Shown piece after piece: positions 1-9,835 of a stretch of 64,000 nucleotides of DNA. The notes under the pieces are model-generated. The model searched no databases. It was not told the DNA's origin and worked only from the letters and a program-made list of their open reading frames with translations. The stretch is from Taiwanofungus camphoratus (taxonomy: Eukaryota > Basidiomycota > Agaricomycetes > Polyporales > Taiwanofungaceae). The position numbers and the translations under genes were made by a program. The stretch spans positions 1 through 64,000 of the forward strand of contig CP021228.1 of assembly GCA_003999685.1 (NCBI GenBank), read 5' to 3'. Each line of letters opens with the position of its first letter. The first letter of the stretch is position 1.

Positions 1-100
1 ACCTAACCTAACCTAACCTAACCTAACCTAACCTAACCTAACCTAACCTAACCTAACCTAACCTAACCTAACCTAACCTAACCTCCTAACCTAACCTAAC
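1..100. repeat. Terminal telomere array, 5-bp unit CCTAA/TTAGG
   Basis: The window opens with uninterrupted CCTAA repeats on the + strand (TTAGG on the - strand), with one CTCC interruption near position 84. The C-rich strand at the left edge is the orientation of a left chromosome end. The unit is 5 bp, not the 6-bp TTAGGG usual in fungi; a few 6-bp CCCTAA units occur only in interstitial tracts further in. Fungal origin is inferred from the genes to the right. Confidence 0.93.
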
Positions 101-793
101 CCCTCTGCTGTGTTAGTCCATGATCTGGTGATCTGTGGGTTGTAACATGCTAGAGCACGGTGCGGCAACTTGCTGGACGCGGTCCTATTGAGTATCCTTC
201 CCCCGCCCCGCATGGCTCGGACAGGGTGCTCACGGGGATTCCCAGGTTTGTGCCATGACATGATGCTTCCTCAGTGGTCCACGCTGCCCTTAGTAGACGC
301 CCGGAAAGCGGCCCGGTCACATGATCGGTGCGGCACCGGCTAAGCTGTTCCTATCTATGTCCGGCCCGGACTAACCTCCGGCCCGGGCTTCCTATCTGTT
401 ATCTCGGATCTTGAGCCTAGGCTTGCGGTCCGGATTCTAATCTTAATCAGATGACTCTGACATCTGATCAGTAATGGTGTCTAGGCGAACCTAGACAATG
501 TCTTTTGTTTGGCGCTGACTGATTAGGATAGGAGGGAGAGACGTGATTCGCTCCCACCTGCAACCCTCTGCCCTGGTTCGGTCAAACTGACTTAGTCACT
601 GGCCCCCGGGCCATGACTCAACCATAAGCGTGACTTTGGTTGAACTTGGTTATAAGCGACGCTAGTGCTCTGATGAGACTTAGTCGAAATTAGCCGTCCG
701 ATAGCGATATCGGGCTAATTAGTACTAGCTTCTCCTAAGCCTCTTTCTTTCTTAGCGCACCAACAGCACCTGCGGCGCTGTTGTCTCCTCCTC
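101..793 (+). repeat. Subtelomeric unit A1 (5'-truncated)
   Basis: The unit begins directly after the terminal telomere array, inside the sequence that lies about 165 bp into the full-length A units, so it lacks their 5' part. It keeps the conserved 3' half: the GTCTAGG/CCTAGAC hairpin, the hammerhead ribozyme at 661-729, a pyrimidine spacer, a GC hairpin (CAACAGC/GCTGTTG) and a telomeric tail at 791-814. There is no credible coding potential. Confidence 0.85.
661..729 (+). ncRNA. Hammerhead ribozyme, unit A1
   Basis: Type I hammerhead. Stem I pairs GCTAGTGCT (661-669) with AGTACTAGC (721-729), 9 bp with one G-U. The core CTGATGA is at 670-676. Stem II is GAC-TTA-GTC, followed by GAAA at 686-689. 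Stem III (689-719) has a 3-nt bulge and a GCGA tetraloop. The predicted cleavage site follows U720. All catalytic-core bases of the family are present; self-cleavage itself is inferred. Confidence 0.9.
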
Positions 794-814
794 CTAACCT
801 AACCTAACCTAACC

Positions 815-1663
815 GCCGGACTTTCCCAGTCCTGCGCTTAGGGTTGCTTAAAAATAGATAGGCGCCTTACGTGTCATATGATATGTTCGGCACTTAGTAC
901 GGACCGGCCCTTCACTGCGGCCCGGTGCGCGCCGTCCCCGCATGCTAGCGGAGCGCGCGTTAACTACTATGGTCCCTAGCGCCCCTCTGCTGTGTTAGTC
1001 CATGATCTGGTGATCTGTGGGTTGTAACATGCTAGAGCACGGTGCGGCAACTTGCTGGACGCGGTCCTATTGAGTATCCCTCCCCCGCCCCGCATGGCTC
1101 GGATGGGGTGCTCACGGGGATTCCCAGGTTTGTGCCATGACATGATGCTTCCTCAGTGGTCCACGCTACCCTTAGTAGACGCCCGGAAAGCGGCCCGGTC
1201 ACATGATCGGCGCGGCACCGGCTATGTTGTTCCTATCTATGCCCGGCCCGGATTAACCTCCGGCCCGGACTTCCTATCTCTTATCTCGGATCTTGAGCCT
1301 AGGCTTGAGGTCCGAATTCTAATCTTAATCAGATGACTCTGACATCTGATCAGTAATGGTGTCTAGGCGAATCTAGACAATGATGATTGCTCATCGCTGA
1401 TTGATTAGGATAGGAGGGAGAGACGTGATTCGCTCCCATTTGCAACCCTATGCCCTGGTACGGTCAAACTGACTTAGTCACCGGCCCCCGGGTCATGACT
1501 CAACCATAAGCGTGACTTATGTTGAACTTGGTTATAAGCGACGCTAGTGCTCTGATGAGACTTAGTCGAAATTAGCCGTCCGGTAGCGATACCGGGCTAA
1601 TTAGTACTAGCTTCCATTAAGTCTTCTCAACGCTCGCAACTCCTTCGTCGTTGCTCGCTCCAC
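815..1663 (+). repeat. Subtelomeric unit A2 (full length)
   Basis: Full-length A unit starting with the 5' hairpin GGACT-loop-AGTCC right after a CCTAACC tract. The body matches the other A units closely. Its 3' terminal segment differs: after the ribozyme it has a GCAAC/GTTGC hairpin and CGCTCCACCTCC, like the B units, not the CAACAGC hairpin. It is therefore a mosaic of A body and B-like tail. The telomeric tail is 1664-1682 and includes one CCCTAA unit. Confidence 0.85.
1543..1611 (+). ncRNA. Hammerhead ribozyme, unit A2 (with covariation)
   Basis: Same architecture as in A1, with CTGATGA at 1552-1558 and predicted cleavage after U1602. Stem III reads CGGTA-GCGA-TACCG where other A copies read CGATA-GCGA-TATCG. 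This is a paired A-U to G-C change that preserves the helix, and it is direct evidence for selection on the RNA fold. Confidence 0.92.
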
Positions 1664-1679
1664 CTCCTAACCTAACCCT

Positions 1680-2310
1680 AACTTGCTGGACGCGGTCCAC
1701 ATAGTATGTCTTACTGGTCTTTGGCCGCAGCCATATCAGGGACGTGCTTATTGGGATTCCCAGGTTTGTGCCATGACATGATGCTTCCTCAGTGGTCCAC
1801 ACTGCCCTTAGTAGACGCCCGGAATGCGGCCCGGTCACATGATCGGCGCGGCACCGGCTATGTTGTTCCTATCTATGTCCGGCCCGGATTAACCTCCGGC
1901 CCGGACTTCCTATCTTTTATCTCGGATCTTGAGCCTAGGCTTGCGGTCCGGATTCTAATCTTAATCAGATGACTCTGACATCTGATCAGTAATGGTGTCT
2001 AGGCGAATCTAGACAATGTCTTTTGACTTGGCGCTGACTGATTAGGATAGGAGGGAGAGACGTGATTCGCTCCCACTTGCAACCCTTTGCCCTGGTACGG
2101 TCAAACTGACTTAGTCACCGGCCCCCGGGCCATGACTCAACCATAAGCGTGACTTTGGTTGAACTTGGTTATAAGCGACGCTAGTGCTCTGATGAGACTT
2201 AGTCGAAATTAGCCGTCCGATAGCGATATCGGGCTAATTAGTACTAGCTTCTCCTAAGCCTCTTTCTTTCTTAGCGCACCAACAGCACCTGCGGCGCTGT
2301 TGTCTCCTCC
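1680..2310 (+). repeat. Subtelomeric unit A3 (5'-truncated)
   Basis: The unit starts abruptly at AACTTGCTGG after the tract 1664-1682, with an AAC microhomology at the junction. A short divergent stretch follows, then typical A sequence to the ribozyme and the CAACAGC/GCTGTTG hairpin. The telomeric tail is 2311-2333. A truncated 5' end beside an intact 3' end fits incomplete reverse transcription. Confidence 0.83.
2180..2248 (+). ncRNA. Hammerhead ribozyme, unit A3
   Basis: Identical core and stems to the A1 copy: 9-bp stem I, GAC/GTC stem II, GCGA-capped stem III. Predicted cleavage follows U2239. Confidence 0.9.
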
Positions 2311-2333
2311 TCCTAACCTAACCTAACCTAACC

Positions 2334-3193
2334 GCCGGACTTTCCCAGTCCTGCGCTTAGGGTTGCTTAAAAATAGATAGGCGCCTTACGTGTCATATGA
2401 TATGTTCGGCACTTAGTACGGACCGGCCCTTCACTGCGGCCCGGTGCGCGCCGTCCCCGCATGCTAGCGGAGCGCGCGTTAACTACTATGGTCCCTAGCG
2501 CCCCTCTGCTGTGTTAGTCCATGATCTGGTGATCTGTGGGTTGTAACATGCTAGAGCACGGTGCGGCAACTTGCTGGACGCGGTCCTATTGAGTATCCCT
2601 CCCCCGCCCCGCATGGCTCGGATGGGGTGCTCACGGGGATTCCCAGGTTTGTGCCATGACATGATGCTTCCTCAGTGGTCCACACTGCCCTTAGTAGACG
2701 CCCGGAATGCGGCCCGGTCACATGATCGGCGCGGCACCGGCTATGTTGTTCCTATCTATGTCCGGCCCGGATTAACCTCCGGCCCGGACTTCCTATCTTT
2801 TATCTCGGATCTTGAGCCTAGGCTTGCGGTCCGGATTCTAATCTTAATCAGATGACTCTGACATCTGATCAGTAATGGTGTCTAGGCGAATCTAGACAAT
2901 GTCTTTTGACTTGGCGCTGACTGATTAGGATAGGAGGGAGAGACGTGATTCGCTCCCACTTGCAACCCTTTGCCCTGGTACGGTCAAACTGACTTAGTCA
3001 CCGGCCCCCGGGCCATGACTCAACCATAAGCGTGACTTTGGTTGAACTTGGTTATAAGCGACGCTAGTGCTCTGATGAGACTTAGTCGAAATTAGCCGTC
3101 CGATAGCGATATCGGGCTAATTAGTACTAGCTTCTCCTAAGCCTCTTTCTTTCTTAGCGCACCAACAGCACCTGCGGCGCTGTTGTCTCCTCC
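2334..3193 (+). repeat. Subtelomeric unit A4 (full length)
   Basis: Full-length A unit of about 860 bp from the 5' hairpin (GGACT/AGTCC) to the CTCC end box, nearly identical to A3 where they overlap. Internal inverted repeats include ATCAGATG/CATCTGAT and GTCTAGG-CGAA-TCTAGAC. Confidence 0.86.
3063..3131 (+). ncRNA. Hammerhead ribozyme, unit A4
   Basis: Complete core (CTGATGA, GAAA) with the same three stems as A1. Predicted cleavage follows U3122. Confidence 0.9.
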
Positions 3194-3231
3194 TCCTAAC
3201 CTAACCTAACCCTAACCCTAACCTAACCTAC
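3194..3231. repeat. Interstitial telomeric tract with mixed 5- and 6-bp units
   Basis: Starts at the CTCC box that ends unit A4 and contains both CCTAA and CCCTAA units. It separates A4 from the short fragment C. Confidence 0.85.
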
Positions 3232-3286
3232 TAAGCCTCCCTTTCCTGCCCTGCACTCGCAGCCCTTGTAGTGTTGATACATAGAC
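3231..3286 (+). repeat. Short 3'-end fragment of a third unit family (C)
   Basis: About 55 bp of non-telomeric sequence between two telomeric tracts. It starts CTAAGCCTCCCTTTC, resembling the post-ribozyme spacer of A units, then diverges, and ends ACCTCCTAACC like the other unit ends. It is probably a severely 5'-truncated copy of another family; no ribozyme is retained. Confidence 0.55.
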
Positions 3287-3331
3287 CTCCTAACCTAACC
3301 TAACCTAACCTAACCTAACCTAACCTAACCT
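3287..3331. repeat. Interstitial telomeric tract, pure CCTAA
   Basis: About 45 bp of uninterrupted CCTAA repeats, the longest interstitial tract. It joins unit B1 through a CCT microhomology (CCTGGTTGGTC in the longer B copy). Confidence 0.87.
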
Positions 3332-3548
3332 GGTTGGTCAAATTGAATCAGTCATCGGCCTCCGGCCGATGACTCAGGGTCGATCAGCTGACGACCCTGA
3401 ACCATCGGTTAAAAGTACGACGAGAGTACTGATGAGCTCTTAGCGAAACAAGTGGGTATCTAGCGATAGATACCATTGTTTACTCTTGTCTTCTCTATCT
3501 TTCTCATCTCTTACTACGCTCGCCCGCCTATCGGCGGTCTCGCTCCAC
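3329..3548 (+). repeat. Subtelomeric unit B1 (5'-truncated)
   Basis: Only the last 220 bp of the B family. It holds a perfect 10-bp hairpin (GTCATCGGCC-TCC-GGCCGATGAC), a GGGTC/GACCC hairpin, a hammerhead ribozyme, a CCGCC-TATC-GGCGG hairpin and the CTCCACCTCC end box, followed by the tract 3549-3562. Confidence 0.83.
3419..3490 (+). ncRNA. Hammerhead ribozyme, unit B1 (second sequence family)
   Basis: Core CTGATGA at 3429-3435. Stem I pairs GACGAGAGTA (3419-3428) with TACTCTTGTC (3481-3490), 10 bp with one G-U. Stem II is GCT-CTT-AGC. GAAA precedes stem III (ACAA..TTGT plus GGTATCTA-GCGA-TAGATACC). Predicted cleavage follows U3480. Stem sequences differ almost completely from family A while the core and topology are kept. 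Confidence 0.92.
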
Positions 3549-3562
3549 CTCCTAACCTAACC

Positions 3563-4424
3563 GCCGGACTTACCCAGTCCTGCGCTTAGGGTTGCCTAAA
3601 AATAGATAGGCGCCTTACGTGTCATATGATATGTTCGGCACTTAGTACGGACCGGCCCTTCACTGCGGCCCGGTACGCGCCGTTCCCGCATGCTAGCGGA
3701 GCGCGCGATAACTACTATGGTCCCCAGCGCCCCTCTGCTGTGTTAGTCCATGATCTGGTGATCTGTGGGTTGTAACATGCTAGAGCACGGTGCGGCAACT
3801 TGCTGGACGCGGTCCTATTGAATATCCTTCCCCCGCCCCGCATGGCTCGGACAGGGTGTTCACGGGGATTCCCAGGTTTGTGCCATGACATGATGCTTCC
3901 TCAGTGGTCCACGCTGCCCTTAGTAGACGCCCGGAAAAGCGGCCCGGTCACATGATCGGTGCGGCACCGGCTATGTTGTTCCTATCTATGTCCGGCCCGG
4001 ACTAACCTCCGGCCCGAACTTCCTATCTGTTATCTCGGATCTTGAGCCTAGGCTTGAGGTCTGGATTCTAATCTTAATCAGATGACTCTGACATCTGATC
4101 AGTAATGGTGTCTAGGCGAACCTAGACAATGTCTTTTGCTTGGCGCTGACTGATTAGGATAGGAGGGAGAGACGTGATTCGCTCCCACTTGCAACCCTTT
4201 GCCCTGGTATGGTCAAACTGATTTAGTCATCGGCCCCCGGGTCCTGACTCAACCATAAGCGTGACTTTGGTTGAACTTGGTTATAAGCGACGCTAGTGCT
4301 CTGATGAGACTTAGTCGAAATTAGCCGTCCGATAGCAATATCGGGCTAATTAGTACTAGCTTCTCCTAAGCCTCTTCCTTTCTTAGCGCACCAACAGCAC
4401 CTGCGGCGCTGTTGTCTCCTCCTC
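3563..4424 (+). repeat. Subtelomeric unit A5 (full length)
   Basis: Full-length A unit. The 5' hairpin keeps its GGACT/AGTCC stem but its loop differs from A2 and A4. The tail tract is 4425-4442. Confidence 0.85.
4292..4360 (+). ncRNA. Hammerhead ribozyme, unit A5
   Basis: As in A1, but the stem III loop is GCAA instead of GCGA. Both are GNRA tetraloops, so the loop class is conserved. Predicted cleavage follows U4351. Confidence 0.91.
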
Positions 4425-4442
4425 CTCCTAACCTAACCTAAC

Positions 4443-5289
4443 TGAAGGCGCTACCGCGCCTTCTCCATCTGGTAGTTTCGGGAAATAAGACGCTCGTCAC
4501 GTGACTCGCCCGAGAGGGCCGGCCATATGATCAGCATCCAGGCACGGACCGGTTGAGCCGCAAGGCTGGACTGGCCTGGGCACTACCTAGTTATGGTCAC
4601 CAGCGCCCCTCTGCTGTGTTAGTCCATGATCCGGTGATCTGTGAGGTGTAACATGCTATGGCACGGTGCGGCAACTTGCCGGACGCGGTCCTAGTGAATA
4701 TCCCGCCCCCGCCCCGCATGGCTCGGTGAGGGTGTTCCTAGGGATCCTCAGGTTTGTGCCGTGACATGATGCTTCCTCAGTGGTCCACGCTGTCCTTATC
4801 TAGGCGCCCGGAAGTCGGACCGGTCACGTGACTCGGTTGGCACCGGCCCGGATTGTTCTATTCCCACCCTGTCATCCTAACCGATGATAAGGGATCTCTT
4901 ATCTATGAGTCATATCAAATGACTCCTTATCTTTACATCTGATTGTTATCTCTGATCAGGTGGCGGTATTGGTAAAGGCTAGGGCGTTCTAGCCTGCCCT
5001 TTGTCGGCCCGCTGATAAGAGATAAGAGAAATACCATTCATGTGATTGGATGGTCGCCCTACCTCATGGCCTGGTTGGTCAAATTGAATCAGTCATCGGC
5101 CTCCGGCCGATGACTCAGGGTCAATCAGCTGATGACCCTGAACCATCGGTTAAAAGTACGACGAGAGTACTGATGAGCTCTTAGCGAAACAAGTTGGTAT
5201 CTGGCGACAGATACTATTGTTTACTCTTGTCTTCTCTATTTCTCTCATCTCTTACTACGCTCGCCCGCCTATCGGCGGTCTCGCTCCAC
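4443..5289 (+). repeat. Subtelomeric unit B2 (full length)
   Basis: The only full-length B unit, about 847 bp. It opens with a perfect 8-bp hairpin (GAAGGCGC-TACC-GCGCCTTC) immediately after the telomeric tract. It shares a central block with family A (around CCCTCTGCTGTGTTAGTCC) but has different hairpins elsewhere: GAGTCAT/ATGACTC, AGGCTAG/CTAGCCT and the GGCC hairpin. Similar layout with different sequence points to a structured RNA. Confidence 0.85.
5160..5231 (+). ncRNA. Hammerhead ribozyme, unit B2 (with covariation)
   Basis: Same fold as B1, with CTGATGA at 5170-5176 and predicted cleavage after U5221. The tip of stem III is CTG-GCGA-CAG where B1 has CTA-GCGA-TAG, a compensatory A-U to G-C replacement. 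Confidence 0.92.
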
Positions 5290-5330
5290 CTCCTAACCTA
5301 ACGCTAATCCTAACCTAACCTAACCTAACC
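5290..5330. repeat. Interstitial telomeric tract with degenerate units
   Basis: CCTAA repeats with variant units (CGCTAA, TCCTAA) between units B2 and A6. The degeneracy suggests it is older than the pure tract at 3287-3331. Confidence 0.83.
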
Positions 5331-6189
5331 GCCGGACTATTCCAGTCCTGCGCTTAGGGTTGCCTAAAAATAGATAGGCGCCTTACGTGTCACATGATAT
5401 GTTCGGCACTTAGTACGGACCGGCCCTTCATTGCGGCCCGGTGCGCGCCGTTCCCGCATGCTAGCGGAGCGCGCGATAACTACTATGGTCCCCAGCGCCC
5501 CTCTGCTGTGTTAGTCCATGATCTGGTGATCTGTGGGTTGTAACATGCTAGAGCACGGTGCGGCAACTTGCTGGACGCGGTCCTATTGAATATCCTTCCC
5601 CCGCCCCGCATGGCTCGGACAGGGTGTTCACGGGGATTCCCAGGTTTGTGCCATGACATGATGCTTCCTCAGTGGTCCACGCTGCCCTTAGTAGACGCCC
5701 GGAAAAGCGGCCCGGTCACATGATCGGTGCGGCACCGGCTATGTTGTTCCTATCTATGTCCGGCCCGGACTAACCTTCGGCCCGGACTTCCTATCTCTTA
5801 TCTCGGACCTTGAGCCTAGGCTTGCGGTCCGGATTCTAATCTCAATCAGATGACTCTGACATCTGATCAGTAATGGTGTCTAGGCGAACCTAGACAATGT
5901 CTTTTGCTTGGCGCTGACTGATTAGGATAGGAGGGAGAGACGTGATTCGCTCCCACCTGCAACCCTTTGCCCTGGTTCGGTCAAACTGACTTAGTCACCG
6001 GCCCCCGGGCCATGACTCAACCATAAGCGTGACTTTGGTTGAACTTGGTTATAAGCGACGCTAGTGCTCTGATGAGACTTAGTCGAAATTAGCCGTCCGA
6101 TAGCGATATCGGGCTAATTAGTACTAGCTTCTCCTAAGCCTCTTCCTTTCTTAGCGCACCAACAGCACCTGCGGCGCTGTTGTCTCCTC
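5331..6189 (+). repeat. Subtelomeric unit A6 (full length, innermost)
   Basis: Full-length A unit closest to the centromere. Its 5' hairpin is GGACT-ATTCC-AGTCC, so the loop is changed and the stem conserved. Close to A5 in sequence, which suggests they derive from similar source RNAs. Confidence 0.85.
6060..6128 (+). ncRNA. Hammerhead ribozyme, unit A6
   Basis: Complete core and stems as in A1. Predicted cleavage follows U6119. Confidence 0.9.
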
Positions 6190-6208
6190 CTCCTAACCTA
6201 ACCTAACC
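6190..6208. repeat. Innermost telomeric tract abutting a gypsy relic
   Basis: CTCCTAACCTAACCTAACC runs directly into gypsy polyprotein-coding sequence on the - strand. This junction looks like a healed chromosome end. Confidence 0.8.
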
Positions 6209-8228
6209 CTTCTCGGAAATAGGTGAGGTTCTTGTGGTCGGTGATCACCGTGACCGGATGTCCACTTCCTTCAAGGTGGTGGCGCCATTCCTCGAGTGCT
6301 CGGACAATGGCCAGCAGCTCTCTGTCATATACTTGATAATTCCGCTCCGCTTCTTTCAGGCTCTTCGAGAGGAAAGCTATAGGGTGTAGCCGCCCTTCTT
6401 CATCAAGTTGTTGAAGCACTGCACCAGTGGCTACCAGAGAGGCGTCGGCCTCAATGGTGAATGGTTTGGACAGGTCGGGCATGCGAAGGATAGGCATGCT
6501 CTGGAAACACCGTTTGAGCTCGTCAAAGGCCTCCTGGCAGGCTTTGGTCCAGTTCCACTCCGCGCGTTTCTTCTTGATGACATTCAAGGGGTGAGCGATG
6601 TGGGAGAAGTTGTGGATGAAGCGTCGGTAGTAGTTGGCGAGACCCATGAATCGTTCCACATCCTTGACCCTAGTAGGAATGGGCCAATCTGCGATTCCTG
6701 CCAGTTTGTCCTTGTCCATGTGCACCTGTCCAGGTGAGATGGTCATTCCCAAGAAGTCAACTTCGACGACATCGAACGCGCATTTCTCTGGCTTGACAAA
6801 TAGATCCCATTCCTGCAGCCGTTGTAGGACGCGTCTGGTTCGTTCTCGGTGGGCTTCCATATTGTCGGAGAAAATGAGGATGTCGTCCATATAGATCGCG
6901 ATCCACCCCTCGGCCAGCATGTCCTGGAACGCGTCATTCATCATTCGCTGAAACGTGGCCGGCGAGTTGCACATCCCAAAGAACATGACGGTGGGTTCGA
7001 CGATCTTGTCCTGATTCCTATGTTTGACCATGAATGCTCCTTTCCATTGATCGCCCTCTCTTATCCGGACGTTGTTGTACCCATTTCGGAGATCTAATTT
7101 AGTGAACACAGTGGCCCTTTGGAGCCTGTCGATTAGCTCTCCTATGAGGGGCAAGGGGTAGGCATCTTTGATCGTGCCCTTGTTCAGGTATCGGTAGTCC
7201 TGGCACGGGCGCAAGGTACCATCCTTTTTTTTGACAAAAAAGGCTGGTGACGCCATTGGTGAGTTTGATTCTCGGAGATAGCCCTTGGCCAGGTTTTCTT
7301 CCAAAAATTTGTCCATTGCTGCCTGTTCATTTGGAGACAAAGGAATTACGGCGCATTTTCTGGGGACAAAGTCTGGCCTTAATTCGATGGCATGGTCCCA
7401 GGGCTTGGATTCTGGGAACCGGTTGGCAGCCTCCTTTTCGAACAACCGTTTATAGTCCCACAGGTATTCTGGGACAAGGTCTTCTACGGATGGGGGTGGG
7501 TCCTTGGGGATCACCAATTCCGTGAGCTCTGGGACATCCCATACCATATGTGGGGAGTCAGGGAGGCGTGTTAGTCGATTGAGCCCTAGTTGTGTGGGCT
7601 TTAGGGCCTGCAGTAGCCCGTCTTCACGTACGAGCGGCTGCCCTTTCTGTTGGAAGATCCCCAGAACCCCTTCTCCTTGTGTGTAAGCACACATTATGTC
7701 TGAAAGCTCCTCATCGTCTTCATGAATGGAAGCTCGACACAGGGGAATTCCGTCTGTCGTGGGTTGGCTCATGATCCAGGCATAGTATCCTTGCCATTCT
7801 GTGAGTCGAGCTTGGTCAATCTCGAGCGTTCCTTCTACCCAGTCGATGCGTGGGTTGACTTGTGCGAGCCAGGGGTTGCCGAGTACTACATCGAGCGTTC
7901 CAATGTTTGAGACATAAAAGTTGGTTGGGATGTCATTTCCTTCTAATCGTATGCTCCCTTCGACTCTGTGGGTAATCGGTCCCCCTTTGTTTGTAGAGCC
8001 GTCAATGGTGGTTGAGGTTACTGTCCTGGGAAGCGGTCGAGTGGGGAGTCCCCACTTCCTTACAAAGTCGGGGTGAATTAGGTTGGCGTCAGCCCCACTA
8101 TCCAATAGGGGGCATGCAGCGACGGCTTTCTCTCCTACGACGATGTAACCCGGTAGATAAAGTGTATTGCGCTTGCGCGTTCCGGTAATTACATTTCGTA
8201 CAGAGAGTTTAGGCGACTCGTGCGTCAC
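6208..8228 (-). pseudogene. pol remnant of gypsy relic 1 (protease, RT, part of RNase H)
   Basis: The reading frame shows in order a retropepsin-type motif (LDSGADANLIHP, about residues 42-53), a Ty3/gypsy reverse transcriptase with the YMDDILIFS active-site motif, and the start of an RNase H domain (TIEADAS, later TDHKNL). It matches the usual protease-RT-RNase H order of Ty3/gypsy pol. It is treated as a fossil because the element is incomplete. Confidence 0.88.
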
Positions 8229-8239
8229 GTCGGGTCGCC

Positions 8240-9835
8240 TTACAGAAAATCCACAAAGTCGTGGTGCTGAGAGAAGTGGGGGAATCTTACTCCTTTCGTT
8301 TCTTGCCCCTGCTCCTCCTGCTCAGAGGCTTCATCATCCGCCTCGTTTTCATCTTTCATGTTGGCCCTTCGGTTTGGGGGTCCTGTTCCCCGACCCGAGG
8401 TTCGCTCCGGGCAGTCTTTGGCCAGGTGCCCCTTATTGTGGCATTTGTAGCAGGAGCCCGTCCTTCGGTCTTGCAAGCGCTGATGGTCTGGCTTCCCACT
8501 GTCAAATGCCCTTGCTGCGACTCGTGGAGGGGTTTTCGAAGTTCTTTGAGCGGCATCGATGGCCTTGTTGTTTCGATAGGCCCGGTCCCGTTGGGCAGCA
8601 GCTTCCTTCCATCCTTCTAGGGTTGTGGGGGCTACATCTCGTTCTATGATTCGGACTCGCATGGTGCTGGGTAGTTTTTCTCGGTACCAGGCCATAAGGG
8701 CACTTTCTTCGGTGATTTCTGCCCTGCGGGCCAGTCGGTCGAACTCCTCGTTGAAATCGGCAATGGGTTTGTCGTAGGTGTAGACCAAGTTCCGTAGTTC
8801 GATGGCTGCAGAGACCTCCTCCTCTATTACCCCGAACCTTTTGATGAACTCGAGAGCGACATTCCTGAAAGTGCCGTACCCCCGGCTCACCCCTCGGATG
8901 AGGGGGTGGGGTTCGAGTGCCTTTTCGGTGAGAGTATCGGCCCAGGCACCAGCATGGCCTTCGAGGTGGCCAAGGAAATTGCCGACCTTTTCTCGTTCGG
9001 AAGCAGAGGCCCATCGCTCGGTGTCAAATCTTCGGGCAAATTGGATGAGGAAGTGTCGGGCATCCTCTCGCTTTCCAGAGAACTTAGTAATTTCTGGCTC
9101 TTTTCGGTCCGGTACCCGTGCAGCTCCCTGTGGGAGGGGCGTTCCTCCAGGCGGCTGCCCCCCTCCAGGGGGTCCTCCCCCAGGGGGTCCTCCTCCCCCA
9201 GGTGGTCCTCCTCTACCGGGTAGTCCTCCTCCACTGGGCACTCCTCCGCCAGGTGTTCCTCCTCCGCCAGGTGTTCCTCCTCCGCCAGGTGGTCCTCCTC
9301 CACCAGGTGGTCCTCCTGGGGGTCCTCCACTCTCGTCATAAGGTGGTCCTCCCTCGGGGGGGCCTTCCTCCCCCAGCCCATCGTCAGGCGGTGGCCCTGA
9401 TTCCCCTATTCCTGATCGGAAAGAGCTCAAGCCACGGGGTGTTTCCGGAGTGGAAGGGGATGTTTTTCCTGTCCCTTCAGTCTCCATTTGTCGTTCTGTC
9501 CGTTCAATGTCAGGATCGGTTAGTTCTGAGCTGGAGCCTTCGTCGGAGGGTGGGTCGGTTTCGTCAAAGGTTGTCCAGCGGGCCTGGATGAGGGCACGAT
9601 TGGTTGGAGTACAAGGTTCGAAATCGCTTCCCCTGTAGAGTGCAGAGTCGTAGTGGTGAGGGCACGGTTGCGTTGAGCAGACCCTCCAGTTAGAAGTCTT
9701 CGTGTAATGTCGGTGTACGTCCCGATTGTTCTCCGCTTGATAGCGATGAGCCTTCCCGGCGCACGTCAGGGTCGATCTCCGCCTCGTTTTGGAGGATGGA
9801 TCCAGCTTGCCACCGGTGATAGAAATCTCGGGCAC
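8240..9835 (-). pseudogene. gag remnant of gypsy relic 1
   Basis: The frame holds a long Gly/Pro-rich tract encoded by a 15-18 bp minisatellite (about 9130-9330), a retrotransposon gag domain (from about PEITKFSGKREDARHF), and a CCHC zinc knuckle (CYKCHNKGHLAKDC) near the C-terminus. These are standard nucleocapsid features of Ty3/gypsy gag. Long antisense frames over the same region come from the biased base composition and are not genes. Confidence 0.83.

Follow-up and report, generated by a model that had tools for sequence, protein, structure and literature searches.

Hammerhead ribozymes reportedly occur in fungal Penelope-like elements, where Cervera and de la Pena are said to have located them in the pLTR in 2014, with the fungal variants stable as monomers. 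Coprina is one of the names under which such fungal elements are known. Endonuclease-deficient Penelope-like elements of fungi are telomere-associated and carry a reverse transcriptase (RT) without an endonuclease, and in this they resemble the element reported here (PMC3846280, PMC12477314). In the Terminons of bdelloid rotifers, which carry the Athena RT, the reverse-complement telomeric repeats of the 3′ end are directly preceded by the hammerhead (PMC6431247). Most hammerheads of animal Penelope-like elements are minimal and without helix III (PMC7761336, PMC6155905).

The window analyzed here is the 64-kb stretch of contig CP021228.1 from Taiwanofungus camphoratus, and all of the features located below lie on its + strand. 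It begins with the terminal telomere (2–99), read as the C-rich strand (CCTAA)n of a TTAGG repeat, followed by pLTR units that are all without an RT ORF. Unit 1 (100–792) is a 5′-truncated family A pLTR beginning at about pLTR position 169, with a hammerhead at 661–729 whose predicted cleavage lies between 720 and 721. Family A hammerheads are also found in the full-length unit 2 (813–1665; hammerhead at 1543–1611, predicted cleavage before 1603), the 5′-truncated unit 3 (1682–2311; 2180–2248, before 2240), and the full-length units 4 (2332–3194; 3063–3131, before 3123), 6 (3561–4426; 4292–4360, before 4352), and 8 (5329–6191; 6060–6128, before 6120). Family B is represented by the 5′-truncated unit 5 (3329–3550; hammerhead at 3419–3490, predicted cleavage before 3481) and the full-length unit 7 (4442–5291; 5160–5231, before 5222). 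A 62-nt fragment of the family A 3′ tail (3227–3288) has no ribozyme and begins about 13–14 nt downstream of the cleavage site. The innermost telomeric tract (6192–6206) abuts a broken Ty3/gypsy-type element.

The hammerheads were located with a descriptor that ran through CTGATGA, stem II, GAAA, stem III (beginning with the last A), an NUH site, and stem I, with minimum lengths of 3, 4, and 6 bp for stems II, III, and I, respectively. All 8 matches in the window were on the + strand, with none on the − strand, and a chance fold is ruled out by the 0 matches in 200 dinucleotide shuffles, in which both strands were scanned. The scan recovered the eight complete hammerheads at 661–6128 that the initial annotation had proposed, their division into six family A and two family B copies, and all 8 of the predicted 5′ ends (721, 1603, 2240, 3123, 3481, 4352, 5222, and 6120). 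The claim that each unit retaining its 3′ part contains a hammerhead has one exception in the window, the fragment at 3227–3288, which starts downstream of the ribozyme. Likewise, the GNRA cap described for stem III is present in subfamily A1 and in family B, but subfamilies A2 and A3, found elsewhere, have a CCCC-rich loop.

The folds are of type I, with the CUGAUGA...GAAA core joined by stem II, the type I stem order, and an NUH site; the predicted cleavage sites are AUU in family A and GUU in family B. Their long stem III sets them apart from most of the animal hammerheads mentioned above. Genome-wide, 134 A-type matches (one match in the reversed control) and 23 B-type matches were found. 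In 195 kb of chromosome ends, the full fold was kept in 96 of 97 exact cores, with 0 in antisense, and viral contigs scanned with the hammerhead pattern gave 0 matches. On inspection by eye for a tertiary contact between stem I and loop II, stem I is without an internal loop, and CUUAG is seen in stem-loop II of both families in a differing register. A pseudoknot between loop II and the upstream strand (CUUA with UAAG), also judged by eye, suits A1 and not A2, and was dropped.

The initial annotation had stated that the lack of a covariance-model hit above threshold would count against the ribozyme, and, formally, this is what was found: 0 Rfam models scored at or above gathering in the window. 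Of the hammerhead models, RAGATH-1-hammerhead (RF03152; E = 0.7) matched bases 1–6400 best. It shares with the present hammerheads the core and a stem II of GACUU type, and its model consensus is also similar, in that a hairpin lies upstream with an A-rich stretch after it; its score, however, was 25.1 bits, where the cut-off is 56.3. The absent Rfam match is outweighed by the other hammerhead evidence.

Across 73 family A copies, the diversity was 0 at stem II with its loop and at the 5′ strand of stem I, whereas the mean at flanking sites in the same comparison was 0.07–0.25. Because these copies had been picked by their core, which biases the core values, a test was run with copies selected by the upstream flank alone, and CTGATGA...GAAA was intact in 95 of the 96 copies found in this way. 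Changed cores belong to two old, innermost copies, and the cleavage triplet was retained in 96 of 97 copies. The comparison of mutation rates in core and flank, raised in the initial annotation, thus favors the ribozyme.

With families A and B combined, 97.6% of the cells were paired, as compared with at most 48.4% in slid pairings. Both sides changed in 10 of 17 pairs, a count matched by 176 of 500 shuffles; within family A, both sides changed in 2 of 20 pairs, a count matched by 65 of 500 shuffles. A covariance model trained on family A alone recovered all 23 of the 23 B copies, with E values from 2.1e-5 to 5.8e-4. The compensatory change of CGATA/TATCG to CGGTA/TACCG was confirmed in the hammerhead of unit 2, the stem III variant CTG/CAG is present in that of unit 7, and the GCAA loop variant is present in that of unit 6. 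RNAalifold, applied to about 180 nt of A and B jointly, gave a poor consensus (energy −18.5) because the hairpins upstream could not be aligned from their sequence. The conserved, covarying hammerhead RNA proposed in the initial annotation is supported by the fold counts, the flank-only test, the pairing, and the A-only model. These results suggest that selection maintains a self-cleaving fold, of which the fold is observed and the cutting is predicted.

The initial annotation described the units as subtelomeric repeats and overlooked the RT-encoding element that carries them. Intact elements elsewhere in the genome are about 4.7 kb long, with an RT of about 1180 aa, and are ordered as a pLTR with hammerhead, two telomeric repeats, the RT ORF, a CCTAA tract, a second pLTR with hammerhead, and CCTAACC. 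The internal CCTAA tract is fixed in length, at 98 bp in family A and mostly 79 bp in family B. In many copies, the RT ORF lies between two of these same pLTRs, each at a fixed distance from it, which rules out a host satellite. A retrozyme, which would be non-autonomous, dispersed, and without RT, was also rejected, since the RT-bearing copies share the pLTRs and the listed places are terminal. Among the 100 of the 134 A-type places that were listed, the hammerhead-bearing copies are at chromosome ends and in one orientation. CCTAACC, which complements the TTAGG overhang, lies about 70 nt downstream of the hammerhead, and CCTAAC occurs within 200 nt after 94 of the 97 hammerheads at chromosome ends.

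The two RT ORFs (1181 and 1177 aa) are 81% identical, with a dN of 0.14 and a dS of 0.82. Both matched RVT_1 below the curated cut-off (E = 1.3e-6 for B and 3.8e-5 for A). Homologues, among which the RT core is conserved, are present in basidiomycetes. A profile search of the PDB with the RT gave weak RT matches (best E = 0.0026), and a PDB sequence search with one RT sequence gave no match at E up to 0.01. No Pfam match to the GIY-YIG endonuclease was found in either ORF at E up to 1, within the HMMER filters. Judged from sequence, the carrier appears to be an endonuclease-deficient telomeric Penelope-like element. The window repeats are very probably solo pLTRs of two related families of such a telomere-targeted, Penelope-type (Coprina/Athena/Terminon) retroelement, working in the manner proposed below.

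The arrangement is already known in kind, Terminons being published and hammerheads of fungal Penelope-like elements reportedly described, and the present element is a further case. Both it and the Terminons lack an endonuclease, are attached to telomeres, are 5′-truncated by telomeric repeats, form head-to-tail chains, and have reverse-complement telomeric repeats adjoining the hammerhead at the 3′ end (PMC6431247). In contrast to Terminons, the present element is about 4.7 kb long, with one long ORF, TTAGG repeats, and a hammerhead with a long stem III, and no accessory genes were noticed in the copies examined. A hammerhead placed in the pLTR is also reported for other Penelope-like elements, by Cervera and de la Pena in 2014 and by Lunse in 2017.

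In the proposed working, the element RNA would correspond to the telomere-to-centromere strand. CCTAACC, just 3′ of the hammerhead, would anneal to the TTAGG 3′ overhang, which would prime reverse transcription by the element's own enzyme. Synthesis would continue across the hammerhead to the pLTR, in some cases as far as the ORF, and the 5′-truncated end would then be capped with new TTAGG repeats. Such capping is seen in the sequence; the capping enzyme is probably host telomerase, and a gene with a TERT RNA-binding domain is present in the genome. The hammerhead most likely processes tandem element transcripts beside the telomere-annealing end. Cleavage in vivo has its only support in two insertions that start right at the predicted site, as though the short 3′ cleavage product had been copied onto a telomere. 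The benefit of cleavage to the element is not obvious, because a cut upstream of the annealing site shortens the template.

The truncation junctions bear on whether the RNA is cut. Of 56 tracts classed as truncations, 4 were dropped for repeating the first 20 nt of an earlier one, and 16 others enter other DNA, leaving 36 distinct 5′ truncations that are capped by telomeric repeat and span pLTR and ORF alike. These comprise 32 mapped truncations and four tail junctions (C9R 7949, C9R 23113, C4L 7047, and C8R 1554), and include the doubtful C9R 24074, inside an internal telomeric tract. Among the dropped tracts, C4L 8201 and C8R 1274 seem to be independent insertions at positions already used, and the other two are duplications. 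Two insertions, at C9:1733596 and C13:1458912, start precisely at the predicted point of cleavage and differ in their 3′ tails and flanks; the region of one was sampled because of its junction, and the other alone gives P ~0.03. No junction at the cleavage site was found in family B, and a search for 3′ junctions where the 5′ cleavage product would end gave 0 matches.

These two insertions are possible traces of self-cleavage in vivo, for which they offer modest support. The fuller reading, that cleavage occurs in vivo and that a short 3′ product of about 70–80 nt (half of stem I, the tail, and CCTAACC) is copied onto chromosome ends, is put forward tentatively and is unlikely at present. There is an appreciable chance, short of even, that the junctions arose from coincidence, a truncation hot spot, or CTAA microhomology between telomere and stem III with loss of TTA, and not from cleavage. 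That a position recurs does not by itself prove cutting, because two other positions (pLTR A ~627 and ~678), neither of them a cleavage site, were each used twice by copies with different neighbors. Several truncations also share bases with the telomeric repeat, and the copy C1R 13155 reads GGGCTAAGTACTAGC, without TTA at the site. However, the TTA-less allele is 1 of 97, the different 3′ tails require two such events, and the site had been singled out beforehand, from sequence, among all pLTR positions.

It is also conceivable, though rather doubtful, that the fold is kept for its structure, presenting CCTAACC or binding the reverse transcriptase, and cuts little or never in the cell. Cutting would take away nearly all of the template, and in a published view of Terminons, the ribozyme fold exposes telomere-complementary repeats and cleavage is auxiliary (PMC6431247). 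For the lizard element PAc, mutants with an inactive hammerhead were able to insert in vitro all the same, and RNA-seq showed no ends where the cut would fall (PMC11167929). A purely structural role, however, accounts poorly for core residues, beyond the stems, that are invariant in 95 of 96 flank-selected copies, for the cleavage triplet kept in 96 of 97, and for the two insertions that begin at the cut site.

Less probable still is that the RNA is circularized via two hammerheads, in a retrozyme-like manner, with rolling copying producing the tandem arrays of 4.77-kb spacing. Retrozyme circles are known (PMC6155905, PMC7761336), and the arrays are head-to-tail repeats of one hammerhead-to-hammerhead unit; they are equally explained, however, by long tandem transcripts or recombination, and the near-identical duplication of a 16-kb segment at the left end of C10 looks DNA-level. 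A separate origin of the units, as a non-autonomous subtelomeric repeat of retrozyme-like or satellite kind that spreads through recombination and has the RT element as a mere neighbor, fits the RT-less window units but is very improbable, being largely refuted by the fixed pLTR-ORF-pLTR structure, with its fixed telomeric tract, in many copies and by telomere-capped 5′ truncations in pLTR and ORF alike.

Overall, the genome offers a resource of more than 150 copies, with ragged truncations and with two junctions that coincide with the predicted cut site. The two families live side by side in it, their ribozymes having diverged in a compensated way and their enzymes having remained 81% identical. 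The copy number, truncations, families, and junctions make the question of cleavage testable, provided that the fungus can be cultured. If the RNA is indeed cut in vivo and the short 3′ product copied, ribozyme cut sites would be recorded as telomere junctions, and cleavage would set the length of the DNA added, intact RNA giving a long insertion and cut RNA a short patch.

The window starts inside the telomere, a (CCTAA)n tract corresponding to 5-bp TTAGG repeats (window 1-99), and the array reaches window 6206, with eight repeat units bearing a hammerhead ribozyme (HHR), one short fragment lacking it, and telomeric tracts of 10-40 bp between units. The array is composed only of solo pLTRs, the terminal repeats of the putative Penelope-type carrier element, without its reverse transcriptase (RT) open reading frame. 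A mechanical descriptor scan of the window recovered exactly the eight type I HHRs of the initial annotation, all on the plus strand, and agreed to the base with all eight predicted cleavage positions (721, 1603, 2240, 3123, 3481, 4352, 5222, and 6120); the minus strand gave no site, nor did any of 200 dinucleotide-shuffled versions of the window. The anticipated match to an Rfam covariance model was absent from the window at gathering thresholds. When bases 1-6400 were searched with E up to 10 (17 matches), the best hammerhead was RAGATH-1-hammerhead (25.1 bits, E 0.7, cut-off 56.3), which accounts for six of the 17 sub-threshold matches, each on a family-A site.

The innermost unit abuts a broken Ty3/gypsy-type element (window 6192-9835, minus strand; gag and protease-RT-RNase H), which is interrupted within RNase H and passes straight into the innermost tract of telomeric repeats, as though the chromosome had broken at that point and then healed.

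Across the assembly (33.2 Mb in 15 contigs, with the window at C9:1-64000), the family-A core was matched 134 times with two mismatches or fewer, 71 times forward and 63 times in reverse, against a single match for the reversed pattern used as control. The family-B core, by a pattern that misses copies with the longer loop CTCCTTAGC, gave 23 matches (13 forward, 10 reverse; control, 0). The 100 listed of the 134 A places and all 23 B places lie on the plus strand at low and on the minus strand at high contig coordinates. Among the 97 exact cores in 195,128 bases from 13 chromosome ends, to which the window contributes 8.4 kb, 96 form the complete three-stem fold and none is antisense. A3 copies on two of these stretches (L034 and L035) represent an additional subfamily with the same hammerhead and a double compensation in stem III; the copy on L035 has a different upstream sequence with a perfect hairpin of its own. 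Near-identical long tandem duplications of ~16 kb on C10 (C10:1-36000, L046-L049) and ~7.4 kb at the C9 right end (L042-L044) suggest recombination among arrays.

In 73 A copies, no variation was seen in stem II, its loop, or the 5' strand of stem I; the flanks had a mean diversity of 0.07-0.18 (upstream) and 0.25 (3' tail), and stem III varied at 0.11. Since this set had been selected by the core and the 3' strand of stem I, the test was repeated with copies picked by flank alone; CTGATGA...GAAA was intact in 95 of 96, bearing out the expectation that the core is kept while the flanks vary.

For 20 distinct variants, pairing was found in 97.6% of cells (slid controls, at most 48.4%), and 10 of 17 pairs had changed on both sides. 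The covariation score and the cells changed on both sides were above all 500 shuffles, whereas the number of pairs so changed was equalled in 176 of 500, and thus not beyond the shuffled range, and the number of pair types was likewise not beyond all 500. Much of the covariation signal is supplied by the A/B split; within A, both-sided change occurred at two of 20 pairs, both in stem III, a count that 65 of 500 shuffles also attained. The compensatory change from CGATA/TATCG to CGGTA/TACCG noted initially is directly visible in the window, and was left out of these counts, as this apical part of the stem cannot be aligned across subfamilies.

Run over 250,727 bases, a covariance model built from ten A variants recovered 23 of 23 B copies, at scores of 27.0-32.7 bits and E values from 2.1e-5 to 5.8e-4. 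The model likewise matched a more divergent, B-like HHR at L055:1980-2052 (C13 right end, minus strand) at 25.4 bits, in which stem II is GTC/GAC versus GCT/AGC, a both-sided change, and the core has AAAA for GAAA. The only other non-A match up to E 1 was 24 nt long and lay at the edge of a locus. The same core change occurs at C9R 27937 (C9 right end, telomere-first numbering), and both copies sit close to the inner edge of their own array. The L055 copy is followed by CCTCCAAACCCTAAC.

A 4.77-kb spacing recurring among the HHRs pointed to full elements. An open frame of 1181 aa (A) or 1177 aa (B) is flanked by HHR-bearing units in C1, C3, and C10, among others, in the order pLTR with HHR, two telomeric repeats, ~0.2-kb leader, RT frame, GTTCAAACCAGA, CCTAA tract, pLTR with HHR, and CCTAACC. 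The internal CCTAA tract, a piece of telomere carried along by the element, has a constant length of 98 bp in A and 79 bp in most B copies; it recurs in many copies at the C1, C2, C3, C9, and C10 ends (L033-L049). The A and B proteins are 81% identical (dN 0.136, dS 0.823), and the chromosome ends examined hold 20 open frames of 900 codons or more. Pfam searches of the frames gave an RVT_1 match under the curated cut-off and no endonuclease domain at E up to 1. Among the best 7999 candidates scored, 364 were homologues at E <= 0.001; the four named among the 120 listed are all from basidiomycetes (Bondarzewia, Fibroporia, Armillaria, and Lentinula), which makes a basidiomycete host probable.

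CCTAAC follows the HHR within 200 nt in 94 of 97 copies, and 63-80 nt separate the predicted cut from the CCTAACC stretch downstream of it. The 5' ends are ragged: 36 distinct truncation points were counted, each immediately preceded by telomeric repeat, and 27 fall within the final 871 nt. This is the pattern expected if a TTAGG overhang primes on CCTAACC of the element RNA and the truncated product is re-capped. The element protein would carry out reverse transcription, telomerase would cap the 5'-truncated end with telomeric repeats, and the HHR would cleave upstream of the annealing stretch. Telomerase is probably present, because the TERT RNA-binding domain is matched twice in the genome (E 6e-14 and 6e-7). 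By eye, and with one copy folded, hairpins (CAACCA..TGGTTG; CAGGGTC..GACCCTG) that share no clear similarity in sequence between A and B recur upstream of the HHR in both families, as does, by eye, an A-rich motif, GGTTAWAA; two or three consecutive hairpins and this motif precede the ribozyme (window 575-660; B copies), a hint of a more extensive structured 3' domain.

Telomeric repeat fused to GTACTAGCTT was sought across the whole genome and occurred three times, once as unrelated internal sequence on C7. The two at chromosome ends, C9:1733596 and C13:1458912, read CCTAA followed directly by GTACTAGC; both start at the predicted cut, with A721 common to the telomeric A, and they are separate insertions, because their 3' tails and neighbours differ. 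Apart from the C13 junction, exact patterns covering portions of three tail types turned up a single one (window 3226), and four more tail junctions are known only from stretches read (C3L 26363, C9R 23113, C4L 7047, and C8R 1554). Assuming uniformity over 871 nt, two of 27 truncations at one given site have P 4.5e-4, rising to 3.9e-3 if the target is widened to 3 nt; when the count is restricted to the cut-site junction found without targeting, P is 0.03-0.09 under the uniform assumption, and for the tail alone (two of seven) 0.003-0.012. Truncations are, however, non-uniform: pLTR A positions ~627 (C3 and C8, left/right ends) and ~678 (C4 left, twice) were each hit by two copies with different neighbours. 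In addition, many truncation junctions have bases in common with the telomeric repeat, and the HHR copy at C1R 13155 (C1 right end, L035) lacks TTA exactly at the cleavage site, GGGCTAAGTACTAGC. This TTA-less copy offers a microhomology route to the cut-site junctions instead of ribozyme cleavage. The genome search found no cut-site junction for family B, and a pattern search found no complementary 3' junction at the end of the 5' cleavage product. As traces of the predicted cleavage, the pair of junctions is suggestive only.

HHRs were reportedly found in fungal Penelope-like elements by Cervera and de la Pena in 2014. The rotifer Terminon is described as ending in an HHR followed by reverse-complement telomeric repeats, the fold being thought to expose these repeats and cleavage to be auxiliary (PMC6431247); as described there, this 3'-end layout is identical to that of the present element. 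For the lizard element PAc, the pLTR-ORF junction is reported to be an internal start site of reverse transcription, and insertion in vitro to persist in HHR mutants (PMC11167929); the two telomeric repeats between pLTR and ORF in the fungal tandem copies would be compatible with internal initiation there. Endonuclease-deficient Penelope-like elements at fungal telomeres are also on record (PMC3846280, PMC12477314, PMC7473861). In a mostly cursory survey of the literature on Coprina, and on Penelope with hammerheads and telomeres or fungi, no account of the present element was recognised. Fungal telomeric Penelope-like elements, HHRs in fungal Penelope-like elements, and the rotifer HHR-telomere 3' end are thus already known, and the cut-site junctions are the part of the finding worth following.
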